Shown here piece by piece: positions 40,672 through 44,921 of a DNA stretch of 64,000 nucleotides; the first letter of the stretch is position 1, and every line of letters starts with the position of its first letter. The notes beneath the pieces were generated by a model, which searched no databases, was not told the DNA's origin, and was given only the letters and a program-made list of their open reading frames with translations. The position numbers were made by a program, and so were the translations under genes. This stretch comes from Cytophagales bacterium (GTDB taxonomy: Bacteria > Bacteroidota > Bacteroidia > Cytophagales > Spirosomataceae), in assembly GCA_013298025.1 (NCBI GenBank), contig JAAFJE010000008.1:1-64000 (forward strand), written 5' to 3'.

Positions 40672-41631
40672 TTAAGCATTTTTACGAGCAATAGCTTTAA
40701 GTGCTTTTTCTACGATATTGGCGGCATTGAGGCCATATTTCTCCATCAATTGAGCAGGCGTTCCTGACTCACCGAACGAGTCGTTTACGCCAACATACTC
40801 AAGTGGTACGTAGTGTTGTTGAATCAACACCTGTGCGATAGAATCGCCCAAGCCACCGTTGATTTGGTGTTCTTCGGCAGAAACGGCACAACCTGTTTTT
40901 TTAACAGATGCTAAGACAGCCTCTACGTCTAAAGGTTTAATGGTGTGGATATTGATAATTTCAGCGTCGATGCCTTTTTCAGCCAAAATTTCACCTGCCA
41001 AGATAGCTTCCCAAACCAAATGTCCTGTAGCAAAGATACTTACGTCTGCACCTTCGTTTACAATCCATGCTTTACCGATGATAAATTCTTGGTCTGGAGC
41101 AGTGAAAATTGGCACAACCGGACGACCGAAACGTAAGTAAACAGGGCCTTCGTATTCAGCTACTGCGATAGTTGCCGCTTTCGTTTGGTTATAGTCACAA
41201 GGGTTGATAACTGTCATACCTGGAAGCATTTTCATCATACCAATATCTTCTAAGATTTGGTGAGTAGCACCATCTTCACCCAAAGTTAAACCAGCGTGTG
41301 AACAAGCGATTTTAACATTTTTATTTGAATAAGCAACTGACTGACGGATTTGGTCATACACACGACCAGTACCGAAGTTAGCAAAAGTAGTAGCAAAAGG
41401 GATTTTACCACCGATAGTCAAACCAGCAGCGATACAAATCATATTTGCCTCAGCAATACCCGTTTGGAAGAAACGCTCTGGATTTTCTTTGATGAAAGCA
41501 TCCAATTTCAAAGAACCAATAAGGTCGGCACAAAGAGCCACTACATTAGGATGCGTTTGTCCTAATACTTGCATACCTGCTCCGAAGCCAGAGCGGGTAT
41601 CTTTTTTTTCTGTGAAAGTATATTTTTTCAT
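40672..41631 (-). CDS. Transketolase, C-terminal subunit
   Basis: 319 aa from MKKYTFTEKKDTRSGFG. The frame start at 41667 lies within the upstream gene. It contains the pyrimidine-binding domain of transketolase (about 10-180, with catalytic Glu in GIAEANMICIAAGL and FATFANFGTGRVYDQIRQSVAYSN, GEDGATHQILED). The C-terminal domain follows (about 190-315, DVSIFATGHLVWEAI and VSAEEHQINGGLGDSIAQ). With the N-terminal subunit at 44.1 kb it forms the ThDP-dependent enzyme that moves two-carbon units in the non-oxidative pentose phosphate pathway. In such split systems the two genes are normally adjacent. Here three foreign genes lie between them, the nearest ending 10 bp upstream. Confidence 0.92.
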   Translation of the reverse strand: MKKYTFTEKKDTRSGFGAGMQVLGQTHPNVVALCADLIGSLKLDAFIKENPERFFQTGIAEANMICIAAGLTIGGKIPFATTFANFGTGRVYDQIRQSVAYSNKNVKIACSHAGLTLGEDGATHQILEDIGMMKMLPGMTVINPCDYNQTKAATIAVAEYEGPVYLRFGRPVVPIFTAPDQEFIIGKAWIVNEGADVSIFATGHLVWEAILAGEILAEKGIDAEIINIHTIKPLDVEAVLASVKKTGCAVSAEEHQINGGLGDSIAQVLIQQHYVPLEYVGVNDSFGESGTPAQLMEKYGLNAANIVEKALKAIARKNA

Positions 41632-41641
41632 TTTTCTATTA

Positions 41642-42226
41642 TTACTCGACAGTTTCAGTCGAGGCACATTGCTTTAATTTTGTTAAAAAATAATTTGCAC
41701 TTGGGCAATTGGGATGATTGGCGGCATGTTGAATTGAAAAACCTGCGTTTAGCATTTTTTGAGCTAATCTTTTCTTTTCATTTTTACCTACAAGTCCTCT
41801 TCTAAACTTTTCAAAATATTTGGTTCGAATCGTTTCAAATGGGACATCTTCGTTTTCTGGAAATTCAAAAGAGTAATCACCTTGAAAAATCGTATTCATT
41901 GCAGTATGGTCTGATAGAAACCAAGATTCAATCTGCTTAACAGCAACTACAATAATTTGATTTTCAGATTCAGTAATTCTCAATCGAGTTTTAGTAATAC
42001 ATTGGTCTTGGTCAAGGTCTGTTAAAATAAAAATAACTGAAGCCCCTTTGCTGAAAAGATTTTCTCTATGACTTTTAATGTTGTGAGGTAATAAATTCGC
42101 ATTTCCTTGAACATTAATTATTCCAACAGAATTAAGTTGGAGTTGATTTAGAATATCCTTAAAAGCCTGAGATTCTAAAATAAAAAGCTCAGTATAACCT
42201 TCACAAATAAACCCAATATTTACCAC
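41642..42226 (-). CDS. TOPRIM-like putative nuclease (DUF4276/RloB-like)
   Basis: The GTG at 42226 overlaps the ATPase stop and has GGAGG nine bases upstream, giving 194 aa that begin directly at the beta-1 strand. An ATG at 42259 would lie inside the ATPase gene. TOPRIM-type acidic motifs are visible: Glu in ICEGYTE (about 6-12), the DxDxD cluster in ILTDLDQD (about 71-78), and KQIESWFLSDHTAMN, as in DUF4276/RloB proteins. A basic segment follows (FEKFRRGLVGKNEKKRLAQKML). TOPRIM partners of AAA ATPases in OLD, PARIS and RloAB systems are phage-triggered nucleases. Nuclease activity is inferred. It ends 10 bp before tktC. Confidence 0.7.
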   Translation of the reverse strand: MVNIGFICEGYTELFILESQAFKDILNQLQLNSVGIINVQGNANLLPHNIKSHRENLFSKGASVIFILTDLDQDQCITKTRLRITESENQIIVVAVKQIESWFLSDHTAMNTIFQGDYSFEFPENEDVPFETIRTKYFEKFRRGLVGKNEKKRLAQKMLNAGFSIQHAANHPNCPSANYFLTKLKQCASTETVE

Positions 42227-43194
42227 GGCAACCCACCTCCAAGGGTATTGGTTAGCCATGCTTCATCCATACTTAATCCATGAAAATCTTCTCCTTTGAA
42301 CTGCTTTATTTTTGTTTCACCCTTGATTTTATTTACTGTGATAATCTCATCGGGAGTAAGTTGAGATACTAATGATTGCGAATGTGTATTTAGCCATATA
42401 TAATGACCTTTTTCCTCACAAGCATTCCTGAAAAAAGTAACCATCTCTTTAATGACATCAGGAGTGAGCCCATTTTCAGGTTCTTCAATACATAAAAATT
42501 GCGGTTCATCAGATTGAAAAACGGCTGTTAGAAGAGCTAGAATATTGTAAGTACCGTCGGAGATTAAATCTTTCGTAAAATATTTGTCAGAATACTTTTC
42601 CTTGATTATTAGGGTATCTGTTCTACTCAATTCAGAAGATTCGATAAATACATCATCAAACTCAGGGATAAACAATCGCAACCAATCAAGTATTTCCTCT
42701 TTCTTGCCTTCTTCATTTAAAATTCTTTTCAGAACTTTTTCGAGATTTGAGCTATCTAGCCGAATATTTACGTTACTATCAATGTTTACTTTTACTTTAT
42801 CTTTGTTATTTACAAAAATTCTATGAAGCCTTTCTGAGATAATGTGATAAATATTTAAGAATTCACTTTCTTTCTTGGTACGCAGCAATTCATATTCTGG
42901 CAATGAATGCCACGTTTCTCCAGAAGTGAAAAAAGCATAATTCTCAAAGTAATAATTAATTGCAATGTCAGCTATGTCTTTTGTTGTTTTAGGATTCAAG
43001 ATATTTTCTTTTCCTCCAAACAATTGAACAACTCCACTCCATGAAAATACATAATGGCTAAACTCCAAAGCCTCAAAAATATTACTTTTCCCCGACCCAT
43101 TTGGCCCAACAAAGACCGTAAATGGATTGGGTTCAATGATTTCTAAATCTGCGATAGATTTAAAATTTTTGATATGTAATTTTTTGATTTTCAA
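42220..43194 (-). CDS. AAA (ABC/SMC-like) ATPase, OLD/RloA/AriA type
   Basis: 324 aa starting with TTG (43194), which overlaps the TGA stop of the upstream Uma2 gene by four bases. The frame opens MKIKKLHIKNFKSIADLEII. Walker A is GPNGSGKS (30-37), a signature-like ISDGTYNILALL lies near 216-227, Walker B is FLCIEEPENGLTPD (about 240-253), and the H-switch is NTHSQSLV (about 278-285). These are features of the AAA_15/AAA_21 ATPases that sense phage and control a toxic nuclease in OLD-like, PARIS (AriA) and RloAB systems. The central 100 residues are a helical insertion. The next gene, TOPRIM-like, overlaps the end, so both are translationally coupled. Confidence 0.85.
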   Translation of the reverse strand: MKIKKLHIKNFKSIADLEIIEPNPFTVFVGPNGSGKSNIFEALEFSHYVFSWSGVVQLFGGKENILNPKTTKDIADIAINYYFENYAFFTSGETWHSLPEYELLRTKKESEFLNIYHIISERLHRIFVNNKDKVKVNIDSNVNIRLDSSNLEKVLKRILNEEGKKEEILDWLRLFIPEFDDVFIESSELSRTDTLIIKEKYSDKYFTKDLISDGTYNILALLTAVFQSDEPQFLCIEEPENGLTPDVIKEMVTFFRNACEEKGHYIWLNTHSQSLVSQLTPDEIITVNKIKGETKIKQFKGEDFHGLSMDEAWLTNTLGGGLPW

Positions 43195-43775
43195 ACGAAT
43201 ACTTTGTTTAAGTCGATGCTCAATTCAGGAAAAGTATATGAGTTCATGATTTCATCTTCTACATAAGGACGCTGCCCGATGTATTTGCCTGCTTCGTTGA
43301 GGGTATAAATCAGCACGTTTTTATCGAGTGTGTTTACTATCCAATACTCTTTTACGCCTGCTTCCTCATACACCTCAAATTTTTCTCGCATTTCTTTTTT
43401 ACTGTTTCCAGGCGATAAAATTTCTACGATTAAATCAGGTGCACCAATACAGCCTCTTTTATCTAGTTTCGATTCATCACAAATCACACAAATATCTGGC
43501 TGTACCACCGTAAGGACTTCCTTTTCAGTTTTTTTATCAAACCGTGGAATTCGTACATCAAATGGAGCAGTAAAATAAGCACATTTTGAACCCCAAAAAT
43601 AGTTGTCTATAAAGTGATTCAAATTTCGAGATACTTCCTGATGCTCTCTCGATGGAGCCGACATTTGCCGAATGTATCCTTTTATCAATTCCAAACGCTC
43701 TGCGATTTGCCATTTGAGGTAATCGGCGTAAGTATATTGTTTGGTCAAGTCGAGTTGGTCTATGCTGGTAATCAT
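43191..43775 (-). CDS. Uma2 family (DUF820) PD-(D/E)XK-type endonuclease
   Basis: 194 aa. Family blocks are YTYADYLKWQIAERLELIKGYI (about 14-35, including the conserved Glu), PSREHQEVSRNLNHFI, VVQPDICVICDESKLDKRGCIGAPDLIVEILSPGNS (about 91-126, catalytic Asp…Glu) and KFEVYEEAGVKEYWIVN with the Lys/Tyr-rich helix. The fold belongs to restriction-endonuclease-like nucleases. Uma2 genes are abundant in Cytophagales and cyanobacteria and mostly uncharacterised. Here it heads a three-gene unit with the ATPase and TOPRIM gene by a 4-bp overlap. Its start lies 288 bp after the transketolase N-subunit gene, and a repeated promoter-like element lies 130 bp upstream. Confidence 0.88.
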   Translation of the reverse strand: MITSIDQLDLTKQYTYADYLKWQIAERLELIKGYIRQMSAPSREHQEVSRNLNHFIDNYFWGSKCAYFTAPFDVRIPRFDKKTEKEVLTVVQPDICVICDESKLDKRGCIGAPDLIVEILSPGNSKKEMREKFEVYEEAGVKEYWIVNTLDKNVLIYTLNEAGKYIGQRPYVEDEIMNSYTFPELSIDLNKVFV

Positions 43776-43895
43776 GGTATTAGATATTATGTATGAAGTC
43801 TGATATATAATATATGATTTATTTTATGCGTTTGTGCTTACCAGTATTGAAAATATTTTCAAGTATCTAACTTTTACTGCTTCATTTTCTTTGGT

Positions 43896-43968
43896 AAGTA
43901 ATTGTGCAAAATTAATTTTAGTTAAAATAAAGTGTAAGTTTTTAAAAATCAAAACACTAATTCACTAA
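43896..43968 (-). promoter_or_regulatory. Promoter-like element, copy B (recurs at 5.3 kb)
   Basis: On the minus strand the sequence carries AAAACTTACACTTT and TAATTTTG (plus 43907-43914), a TAnnTTTG match, in the same arrangement as the copy at 5264-5338. It lies in the 288-bp gap between the transketolase N-subunit gene and the Uma2 gene, and may give the inserted trio and tktC their own promoter. Confidence 0.5.
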
Positions 43969-44063
43969 CTGACAATTCACAATTTTACATTAGTACTTCT
44001 TGAGAAAGCAATAATTCAATTCTTCAAATATATCATAACTCATACTTCCTACATCATATCTAA

Positions 44064-44921
44064 TCAATAATCTCCCAAGGTTTCAGGCAATTGAGCCAAG
44101 GCTGCTGCCAATTGCTCGTTGTTTGGTGCAACACCATGCCATTTGTGCGAGCCCATCATAAAGTCAACACCAGCCCCCATTTCGGTAGTCATCAAAATCA
44201 TAATTGGCTGACCGTTGCCCGAAAGTTCACGTGCTTGTTTCAATACCGCTACTACATCCGCCATGTCGTTACCGTTCATTTTGATAACTTTCCAGCCGAA
44301 TGCTTCGTATTTAGCACCCAAATCACGGTTGTTCATGACCTTTTCTGTTGGTCCGTCGATTTGTTGGCCATTGTAGTCGATAACAGCCACGAGGTTGTCA
44401 ACTTTGTGGTGAGGAGCGTACATGGCTGCTTCCCATACTTGACCTTCGTTTTGCTCACCATCGCCCATCAAGACAAATACCAACGAGTTGTCTTTGTTCA
44501 ATTTTTTTGCTTGAGCCGCACCAATAGCTACCGACATCCCTTGTCCGAGCGAACCCGATGCAATACGGATGCCTTCTAAGTGTTCGTGCGTAGTAGGGTG
44601 TCCTTGCAAACGAGAATTAAGCTTACGGAAAGTGGCTAACTCGGCCGCTGGAAAATACCCAGCACGTGCCAATACTGAATAGAATACGGGTGAAATGTGT
44701 CCGTTCGATAAGAAGAAAAGGTCTTCACCGATACCATTCATATCGAAAATTTTGTTACCAGATTCATCCGACTTGAGCGTCATTTGGTCAAAATAAAGTG
44801 CAACGAGTAAATCGGTACAGCCCAAAGAGCCGCCAGGGTGTCCAGACTGACATGCGTGTACTTGTCTTACGATGTCACGTCTCACTTGTGATGCAATTTC
44901 CTGTAATGCTGAAATTTCCAT
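44064..44921 (-). CDS. Transketolase, N-terminal subunit
   Basis: 285 aa: the ThDP pyrophosphate-binding half. Motifs are CQSGHPGGSLGCTDLLVALYF (about 23-43), FFLSNGHISPVFYSVLARAGYF, the substrate-binding GSLGQGMSVAIGAA, and the ThDP motif GDGEQNEGQVWEAA (about 154-167) ending with Asn in NGQQIDGP. It pairs with the C-terminal subunit at 40.7 kb to reconstitute transketolase. Two-subunit transketolases are common in Bacteroidota and archaea. The pair is normally contiguous, so the 2.4-kb intervening segment is notable. It starts 57 bp after bcp on the same strand. Confidence 0.92.
   Translation of the reverse strand: MEISALQEIASQVRRDIVRQVHACQSGHPGGSLGCTDLLVALYFDQMTLKSDESGNKIFDMNGIGEDLFFLSNGHISPVFYSVLARAGYFPAAELATFRKLNSRLQGHPTTHEHLEGIRIASGSLGQGMSVAIGAAQAKKLNKDNSLVFVLMGDGEQNEGQVWEAAMYAPHHKVDNLVAVIDYNGQQIDGPTEKVMNNRDLGAKYEAFGWKVIKMNGNDMADVVAVLKQARELSGNGQPIMILMTTEMGAGVDFMMGSHKWHGVAPNNEQLAAALAQLPETLGDY

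Follow-up and report, generated by a model that had tools for sequence, protein, structure and literature searches.

Between the two genes of a split transketolase in the 64,000-nucleotide stretch of Cytophagales DNA analysed here (the window), we found genes for an OLD/SMC-type ABC ATPase and a small TOPRIM protein that together probably form a two-component OLD/PARIS-like immune module, resident in a core operon and diversified by recombination, with a hypervariable lobe of the ATPase as its putative sensor. Defence genes are usually thought to be mobile and to be shuffled in and out of islands, and a single fixed core-operon site is unusual for them; here, a probable immune pair is locked in one housekeeping operon across a family, with its presumed recognition part turning over to near-unrelated identity. 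What is new is this extreme allelic variation at a locked site. If our reading is true, these genomes offer a natural collection of sensor lobes, all carried on the same scaffold, and lobe swaps could therefore test directly which region of an OLD-type ATPase recognises phage and what its target is. Nesting in a core operon may also be a means by which ordinary homologous recombination spreads and diversifies immunity, and core operons would be a place that island-based searches do not cover.

Gene organisation and domain content of the locus

In the window, a Uma2-family gene, the ATPase gene and the small TOPRIM gene lie head-to-tail with overlapping ends between tktN and tktC (Table 1), confirming the coupling and position described in an earlier reading made from the sequence alone (the sequence-only reading); the Uma2 and ATPase genes overlap by the four nucleotides TTGA. 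The domain calls of that reading were likewise confirmed by profile matches, with Uma2 scoring 113.7 bits against PF05685 (cut-off 27), and of the 54 pair-bearing genomes described below, 53 or all 54 retain each of the ten key ATPase residues that we checked. The ATPase head fold is common to SMC/Rad50 and to PtuA of Septu and retrons. For the small protein, the predicted structure well supports a TOPRIM fold: both the fold and the acidic residues expected of the TOPRIM superfamily were found, the best VIA matches of the model were to the TOPRIM domains of OLD and Gabija GajA proteins (by a small margin), and residues E8, D69, E99 and W101, among them residues of catalytic type, are conserved in 52/52 sequences. 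A Foldseek search with the same model gave no match at E ≤ 1e-3.

Table 1. Features of the transketolase locus in the window (positions counted from its first letter)
Feature	Position	Strand	Profile matches
tktN, transketolase N-terminal subunit; upstream anchor	44064..44921	-	PF00456 1.2e-46
Uma2-family protein; optional first cassette gene	43191..43775	-	PF05685 8.2e-33; PADLOC PDC-S03 2.2e-53
OLD/SMC-type ABC ATPase, 324 aa, TTG start	42220..43194	-	
ATPase motifs (residues): Walker A 30-37, SDG 212-214, Walker B 233-238, H271			
ATPase hypervariable lobe (residues 46-117), flanked by the Walker A segment and the C-terminal part, both conserved	42844..43059	-	
TOPRIM protein, 194 aa, GTG start, 7-nt overlap with the ATPase gene	41642..42226	-	
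tktC, transketolase C-terminal subunit; downstream anchor	40672..41631	-	PF02779 8.3e-39, PF02780 5.9e-27

The gap between tktN and Uma2 is 288 nt in the window (43776-44063) and 320 nt in one other locus (L079), and 14–24 nt in the other Uma2 loci measured; the long gap in the window may hold a separate promoter. In four of the loci measured the ATPase gene starts 5–26 nt past tktN, leaving little promoter room there.

A single site in the transketolase operon

We surveyed 150 genomes of the family with a TOPRIM profile, which matched 62 of them at E ≤ 0.001; 54 genomes carry 55 strong copies (E ≤ 1e-40), and the other 96 have no strong match, so presence is patchy. All 55 strong copies adjoin tktN and/or tktC. 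Fifty of them lie on the same strand directly upstream of tktC, at a spacing of 5–95 nt except for one copy at 1,052 nt, where an extra ORF intervenes, and the remaining five (L143, L144, L146, L147 and G126:C103) stand at contig ends, each with tktN and/or tktC adjoining (G126:C103 was counted because its coordinates are those of L083, where tktN was seen). The profile's remaining rows comprised 17 weak matches elsewhere (E 2e-8 to 6e-4, one of them in the window's own genome) and four fragments of copies that are broken or split. Among the 54 pair-bearing genomes, full-length tktN and tktC genes were recovered in 51 and 50, respectively.

The sequence-only reading had seen the trio as inserted between genes that are normally adjacent; the survey rules out an insertion peculiar to this genome, and a tktC search of 59 relatives also showed other genera to carry this pair upstream of tktC. 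A further scan of named records overlaps the family survey in genomes; in it tktN or tktC adjoins the pair at 33 of 61 loci, these belonging to Arcicella, Flectobacillus, Pseudarcicella, Emticicia, Runella, Dyadobacter, Spirosoma, Larkinella, Arsenicibacter, Fibrella and Fibrivirga, together with records labelled only Cytophagia, Cytophagaceae or Cytophagales. The 28 loci without tktN or tktC come from records labelled as other Bacteroidota, Chlorobiota, Pseudomonadota, Acidobacteriota or plain "bacterium". A class-wide sample gave matches at E ≤ 1e-20 in 8 of 395 genomes, three of them from the family.

Several observations concern the junction itself. Mobile-element insertion was considered and rejected, as no terminal repeats or transposase were seen by eye in the junctions inspected; one transposase-like ORF (by eye) lies downstream of one copy (L143). 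At least eight of the 150 family genomes have a second close tktC copy among the matches listed (L149, L151, L195-L199), and in seven of the eight the cassette is at one copy and the second tktN–tktC copy is empty; a cassette is thus present in 7/8 such genomes and in 47/142 others (Fisher p 0.003, for a comparison picked post hoc). In L149, ParA- and ParB-like ORFs (by eye) adjoin the empty copy. A different insert of about 2 kb separates tktN and tktC in L065 (G047), encoding by eye a von Willebrand-type protein and a small DUF559-like ORF. In a locus of a related family (L058, G055), the stretch just upstream of tktC holds, by eye, a PIN-like ORF, Uma2 in broken pieces and small ORFs resembling toxin-antitoxin genes, which suggests that the junction hosts other conflict genes in that family.

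Some copies have decayed: we found an ATPase N-terminal remnant (G007), frame-broken TOPRIM genes (G003, G027) and stops (G140), and some of these may be sequencing or assembly errors. Apparent fusions of the ATPase and TOPRIM genes (open frames of 522–523 aa in G135 and G147) proved to be TOPRIM, a stop and tktC in one frame; such a frame was also noted in G127. Decay and patchy presence bear on the idea of a selfish addiction pair, in which a toxic TOPRIM protein is restrained by the ATPase and the pair survives because the operon that carries it is indispensable. The tight coupling of the two genes, the scant promoter room in some loci and the nesting inside housekeeping operons would all suit such a pair, but patchiness and decay speak against it, and it gives no reason for the hypervariability of the lobe; we regard it as quite unlikely.

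Variation of the ATPase lobe, the TOPRIM protein and Uma2

Among the 43 of the 54 genomes in which all genes were complete, mean pairwise identity was 85% over ATPase residues 1–45, 13% over residues 46–117 (gaps counted) and 63% from residue 147 on, with 42% for the TOPRIM protein and 81% for tktC. In 15 pairs with tktC identity of ≥97%, residues 1–45 average 95% and the lobe is 19–44% identical on aligned columns, with a mean of 30% that compares with 24% in 60 distant pairs and 21% in shuffled controls. Of the two clearest cases, one pair (G001/G004) has TOPRIM proteins 99% identical and a lobe identity of 18/74, and the other (G145/G107) has 96% identity in both the TOPRIM protein and the ATPase C-terminal part and 14/75 in the lobe. 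The same drop was seen in DNA profiles of seven locus pairs, the lobe falling to 37–46% in six of them with flanks far more alike; in the seventh, from Flectobacillus (G001/G003), the lobe is at 89% and the whole cassette (89–95%) is more similar than tktN, tktC and bcp (75–85%). Lobes vary in length and differ by whole blocks, motifs at the lobe edges persist, and lobe identity correlates with tktC identity (Spearman 0.37; 0/500 permutations as high). A catalogue of lobe types was attempted and gave no useful types, because single-linkage clustering merged 43 of 54, apparently via the shared edges. On the question of a diversity-generating retroelement, the sole reverse-transcriptase match in the window's genome sits on another contig.

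Model confidence for the lobe is low (pLDDT about 50 at residues 81–110), and this, with the lobe's variable length, could point to neutral drift of an unconstrained loop of no immune meaning. We consider this very unlikely, as the flanks a few residues away are nearly invariant, the edge motifs are retained, and near-unrelated lobes beside TOPRIM proteins of 96–99% identity, as in the two pairs above, would hardly be reachable without swapping. We prefer to see the lobe as the presumed sensor of an immune module.

TOPRIM types, too, reassort between species, and do so only in part, because TOPRIM identity (Spearman 0.53 with tktC identity; 0/500 permutations as high), like lobe identity, still follows that of tktC. 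A quick TOPRIM tree has a class of eight, with starred support, whose members come from different genera, and in a quick tree of the conserved ATPase parts the grouping is mostly by lineage, though one Runella and one Dyadobacter, for instance, depart from it; the starred branches of each tree are compatible with a single origin of the transketolase-linked set. A single clade of six Runella-group TOPRIM proteins was rejected (p-AU 0.0002), the same six genomes being united by the tktC tree (support 80, unstarred); they are six of the nine group members with a strong match and were picked after identities had been seen. Comparison of the window with G061 by dS shows the pair to be younger than the genes around it (TOPRIM 0.22 and ATPase ends 0.17 and 0.40, with tktC at 0.65 and Uma2 at 0.69), but this is not always so: TOPRIM and tktC dS are about equal in G091/G064, and in G011/G079 and G112/G137 it is TOPRIM dS that exceeds tktC dS. 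Across the six pairs tested, dN was lower than dS for the TOPRIM gene and both ATPase ends (one dS for the ATPase C-terminal end was not computable), and the core is under purifying selection.

The sequence-only reading had treated all three genes as one unit, and on this point it did not stand. Uma2 lies between tktN and the ATPase gene in just 10 of the 54 pair-bearing genomes, from several genera, and at 8 of the 33 named transketolase loci, with its place partly visible in three genomes whose contigs start inside the ATPase gene (G126, G150) or shortly before it (G009). In the first 720 nt of L047 (the locus of G009, read in transketolase orientation), an open frame that by eye looks like another nuclease/DUF4435-type protein lies upstream of the ATPase gene, where Uma2 lies at other loci. 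The PD and E residues of the putative Uma2 nuclease motif were conserved by eye in the three Uma2 sequences compared, and Uma2 dN is lower than dS. From these comparisons Uma2 looks like a stable neighbour outside the exchanged unit, because it has diverged differently from the pair or the TOPRIM protein: besides the window and G061, Uma2 dS in G145/G107 (0.32) exceeds that of tktC (0.19) and TOPRIM (0.11), and three Runella genomes (G034, G074, G086) with identical transketolase proteins have Uma2 dN of 0–0.004 (two pairs computed) and TOPRIM proteins 34–42% identical.

A true three-part machine, with Uma2 as the effector nuclease and the pair as its regulator, would account for the TTGA overlap in the window, for Uma2 occupying the same place in several genera and for its dN below dS, but it is highly improbable: 44 of the 54 genomes lack Uma2 there (up to three of them with a contig ending early), judged by dS, it has diverged from the window to G061 about as far as tktC and not as the pair has, and in the three Runella genomes it has changed little alongside very different TOPRIM proteins. 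In the immune module that we favour instead, Uma2 would be an optional helper, nuclease-like, that goes with the host and not with the pair.

More tentatively, and here our own opinion is almost evenly divided, the tktN–tktC junction of Spirosomaceae might be viewed as a single-locus hyperpolymorphic immune-receptor site. The pair would be present or absent there without a strong copy elsewhere, turnover of the lobe would be frequent enough for congeners whose transketolase proteins are identical to carry lobes that are essentially unrelated, and in many cases other effectors as well, and exchange would proceed by homologous recombination anchored in core genes and not by mobile elements, an allelic logic nearer to that of MHC-like or allorecognition loci than to mobile defence islands.

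Relatives, defence links and comparison with known systems

The link to defence came from models and from relatives. The ATPase matches HEC-01A at 4.6e-92, in two stretches with a differing middle lobe, and the TOPRIM protein encoded next to it matches HEC-01B at 2e-53. A TOPRIM search of 72,556 plasmids returned 11 records, all Escherichia coli, and in the two of these that we inspected an AAA ATPase and a TOPRIM relative lie between pglX and pglZ of BREX type 1 (the relative was found by TOPRIM similarity of about 35%, and its ATPase was taken from annotation). Used as a megablast query, one of these E. coli pairs matched 26 of 5,426 E. coli genomes, with pglX and pglZ annotated at the match ends in 26/26; as near kin of one query (84–100%, megablast), these copies represent few independent events. 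The 26 near-identical copies show no swapped lobe, so lobe hypervariability is not universal. According to the part of Rakesh and Krishnan 2026 available to us (PMC12839542), TOPRIM-linked OLD-ABC pairs serve as backup effectors inside BREX loci.

Outside BREX the defence-island signal is weak, because among 111 of 143 neighbour ORFs of relatives away from the transketolase genes, drawn from 17 of 26 loci, three was the highest count for any defence model (among the 25 of 81 matched families listed), and the commonest Pfam family was metabolic FTCD. Two scans of viral contigs found no viral counterpart, and 1 of 50,697 phage records gave a partial match (37% of the query). Tests of 20 chosen neighbours of relatives outside the family placed FTCD directly downstream of the pair in L097, L100, L117 and L129. 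In L101 the pair has squalene/phytoene synthase upstream, as it does in L104, and phosphoglucomutase downstream; L099 has ffh downstream, and the neighbour in L107 is an AccI restriction enzyme. By eye, an imidazolonepropionase-like ORF lies upstream in L202 and L205 and an FTCD-like ORF downstream in L202 and L203, and these three loci and the four with FTCD are probably inside histidine-degradation operons. This sample, small and chosen as it is, suggests that operon nesting is a property of the pair.

Such neighbours might also be read as housekeeping, with an OLD-type ATPase-nuclease acting in DNA metabolism or cell-cycle control and placed in the transketolase operon so that its expression follows central carbon flux. 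The fixed core-operon site of all 55 strong copies and the FTCD neighbours at four loci agree with this, as does the archaeal OLD-family ATPase Cran1, which, from the portion of the paper seen (PMC12796447), acts in cell-cycle progression and apparently not in defence. We nevertheless find it unlikely, given the 96 of 150 family genomes without a strong match, the decayed copies, a lobe near-unrelated between close relatives, which would be unexpected of a housekeeping enzyme, and the BREX nesting in E. coli.

The defence role proposed by the sequence-only reading is likely, given the HEC-01 matches and the BREX-nested relative. That reading had held that a constant site between the transketolase genes, with no link to defence, would speak against it; the site is indeed constant, and a defence link exists because a relative is nested in BREX. 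It had also raised a possible tie to expression of a core metabolic enzyme; we found nothing besides position that links the pair functionally to transketolase. In the immune module that we favour, the ATPase would keep the TOPRIM nuclease inactive until the lobe recognises an invader product, whereupon an ATP-dependent rearrangement would free or activate the nuclease to cut nucleic acid, and the infected cell would be stopped. The pair would be co-transcribed within the tktN–tktC operon and coupled in translation through its overlapping start and stop codons. Vertical descent would keep it at this site, together with homologous recombination through flanks that stay conserved, namely tktN, the Walker A segment, the C-terminal part of the ATPase and tktC; crossovers in these flanks would exchange lobes and TOPRIM types among relatives.

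The module had been thought possibly undescribed; the pairing of ATPase and TOPRIM proves to be of a described kind, and what is unusual is the added Uma2, the lock on one operon site and the hypervariability of the lobe. The closest match is HEC-01, a two-protein PADLOC system (HEC-01A and HEC-01B) that both of our adjacent proteins match strongly, which is a database candidate only, with a putative anti-phage role. We found no paper on HEC-01 in the literature searched, the available excerpts of which describe neither a fixed transketolase site nor a hypervariable lobe. The same literature yielded no paper on DUF4276 and none linking transketolase, Spirosoma and defense system. No title or abstract opening among papers on Uma2, endonuclease and phage refers to a Uma2–pair combination, and the word Uma2 is absent from the retrieved text of the OLD/ATPase/TOPRIM matches listed.

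The BREX modules, as the excerpt of PMC12839542 presents them, have the same OLD-ABC ATPase and TOPRIM, and the E. coli relatives are found inside BREX, whereas no BREX genes were seen alongside the transketolase-nested copies. For PARIS, the ATPase matches AriA at 1.7e-27 but HEC-01A far better, and AriB is a DUF4435 protein in the accessible part of its description (PMC9122126), whereas our TOPRIM protein matches HEC-01B and, weakly, DUF4276, and not DUF4435 (Pfam, E ≤ 0.1). OLD nucleases, whose classes are set out in PMC10568477 (available in part), and Gabija GajA share the ATPase head and TOPRIM, but here these are two chains, unlike the single chain of Gabija and class 2 OLD, and no GajB helicase adjoins (the neighbours are tktN, Uma2 and tktC). 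The AbiLi model of AbiL matches the ATPase at 1.7e-24, but the second protein has no AbiLii match at E ≤ 0.1. In HsdS, target-recognition domains are shuffled, a specificity block being swapped between conserved flanks. Here there are no restriction-modification genes and the variable part is in the ATPase, so the likeness to HsdS lies in block swapping between conserved flanks.
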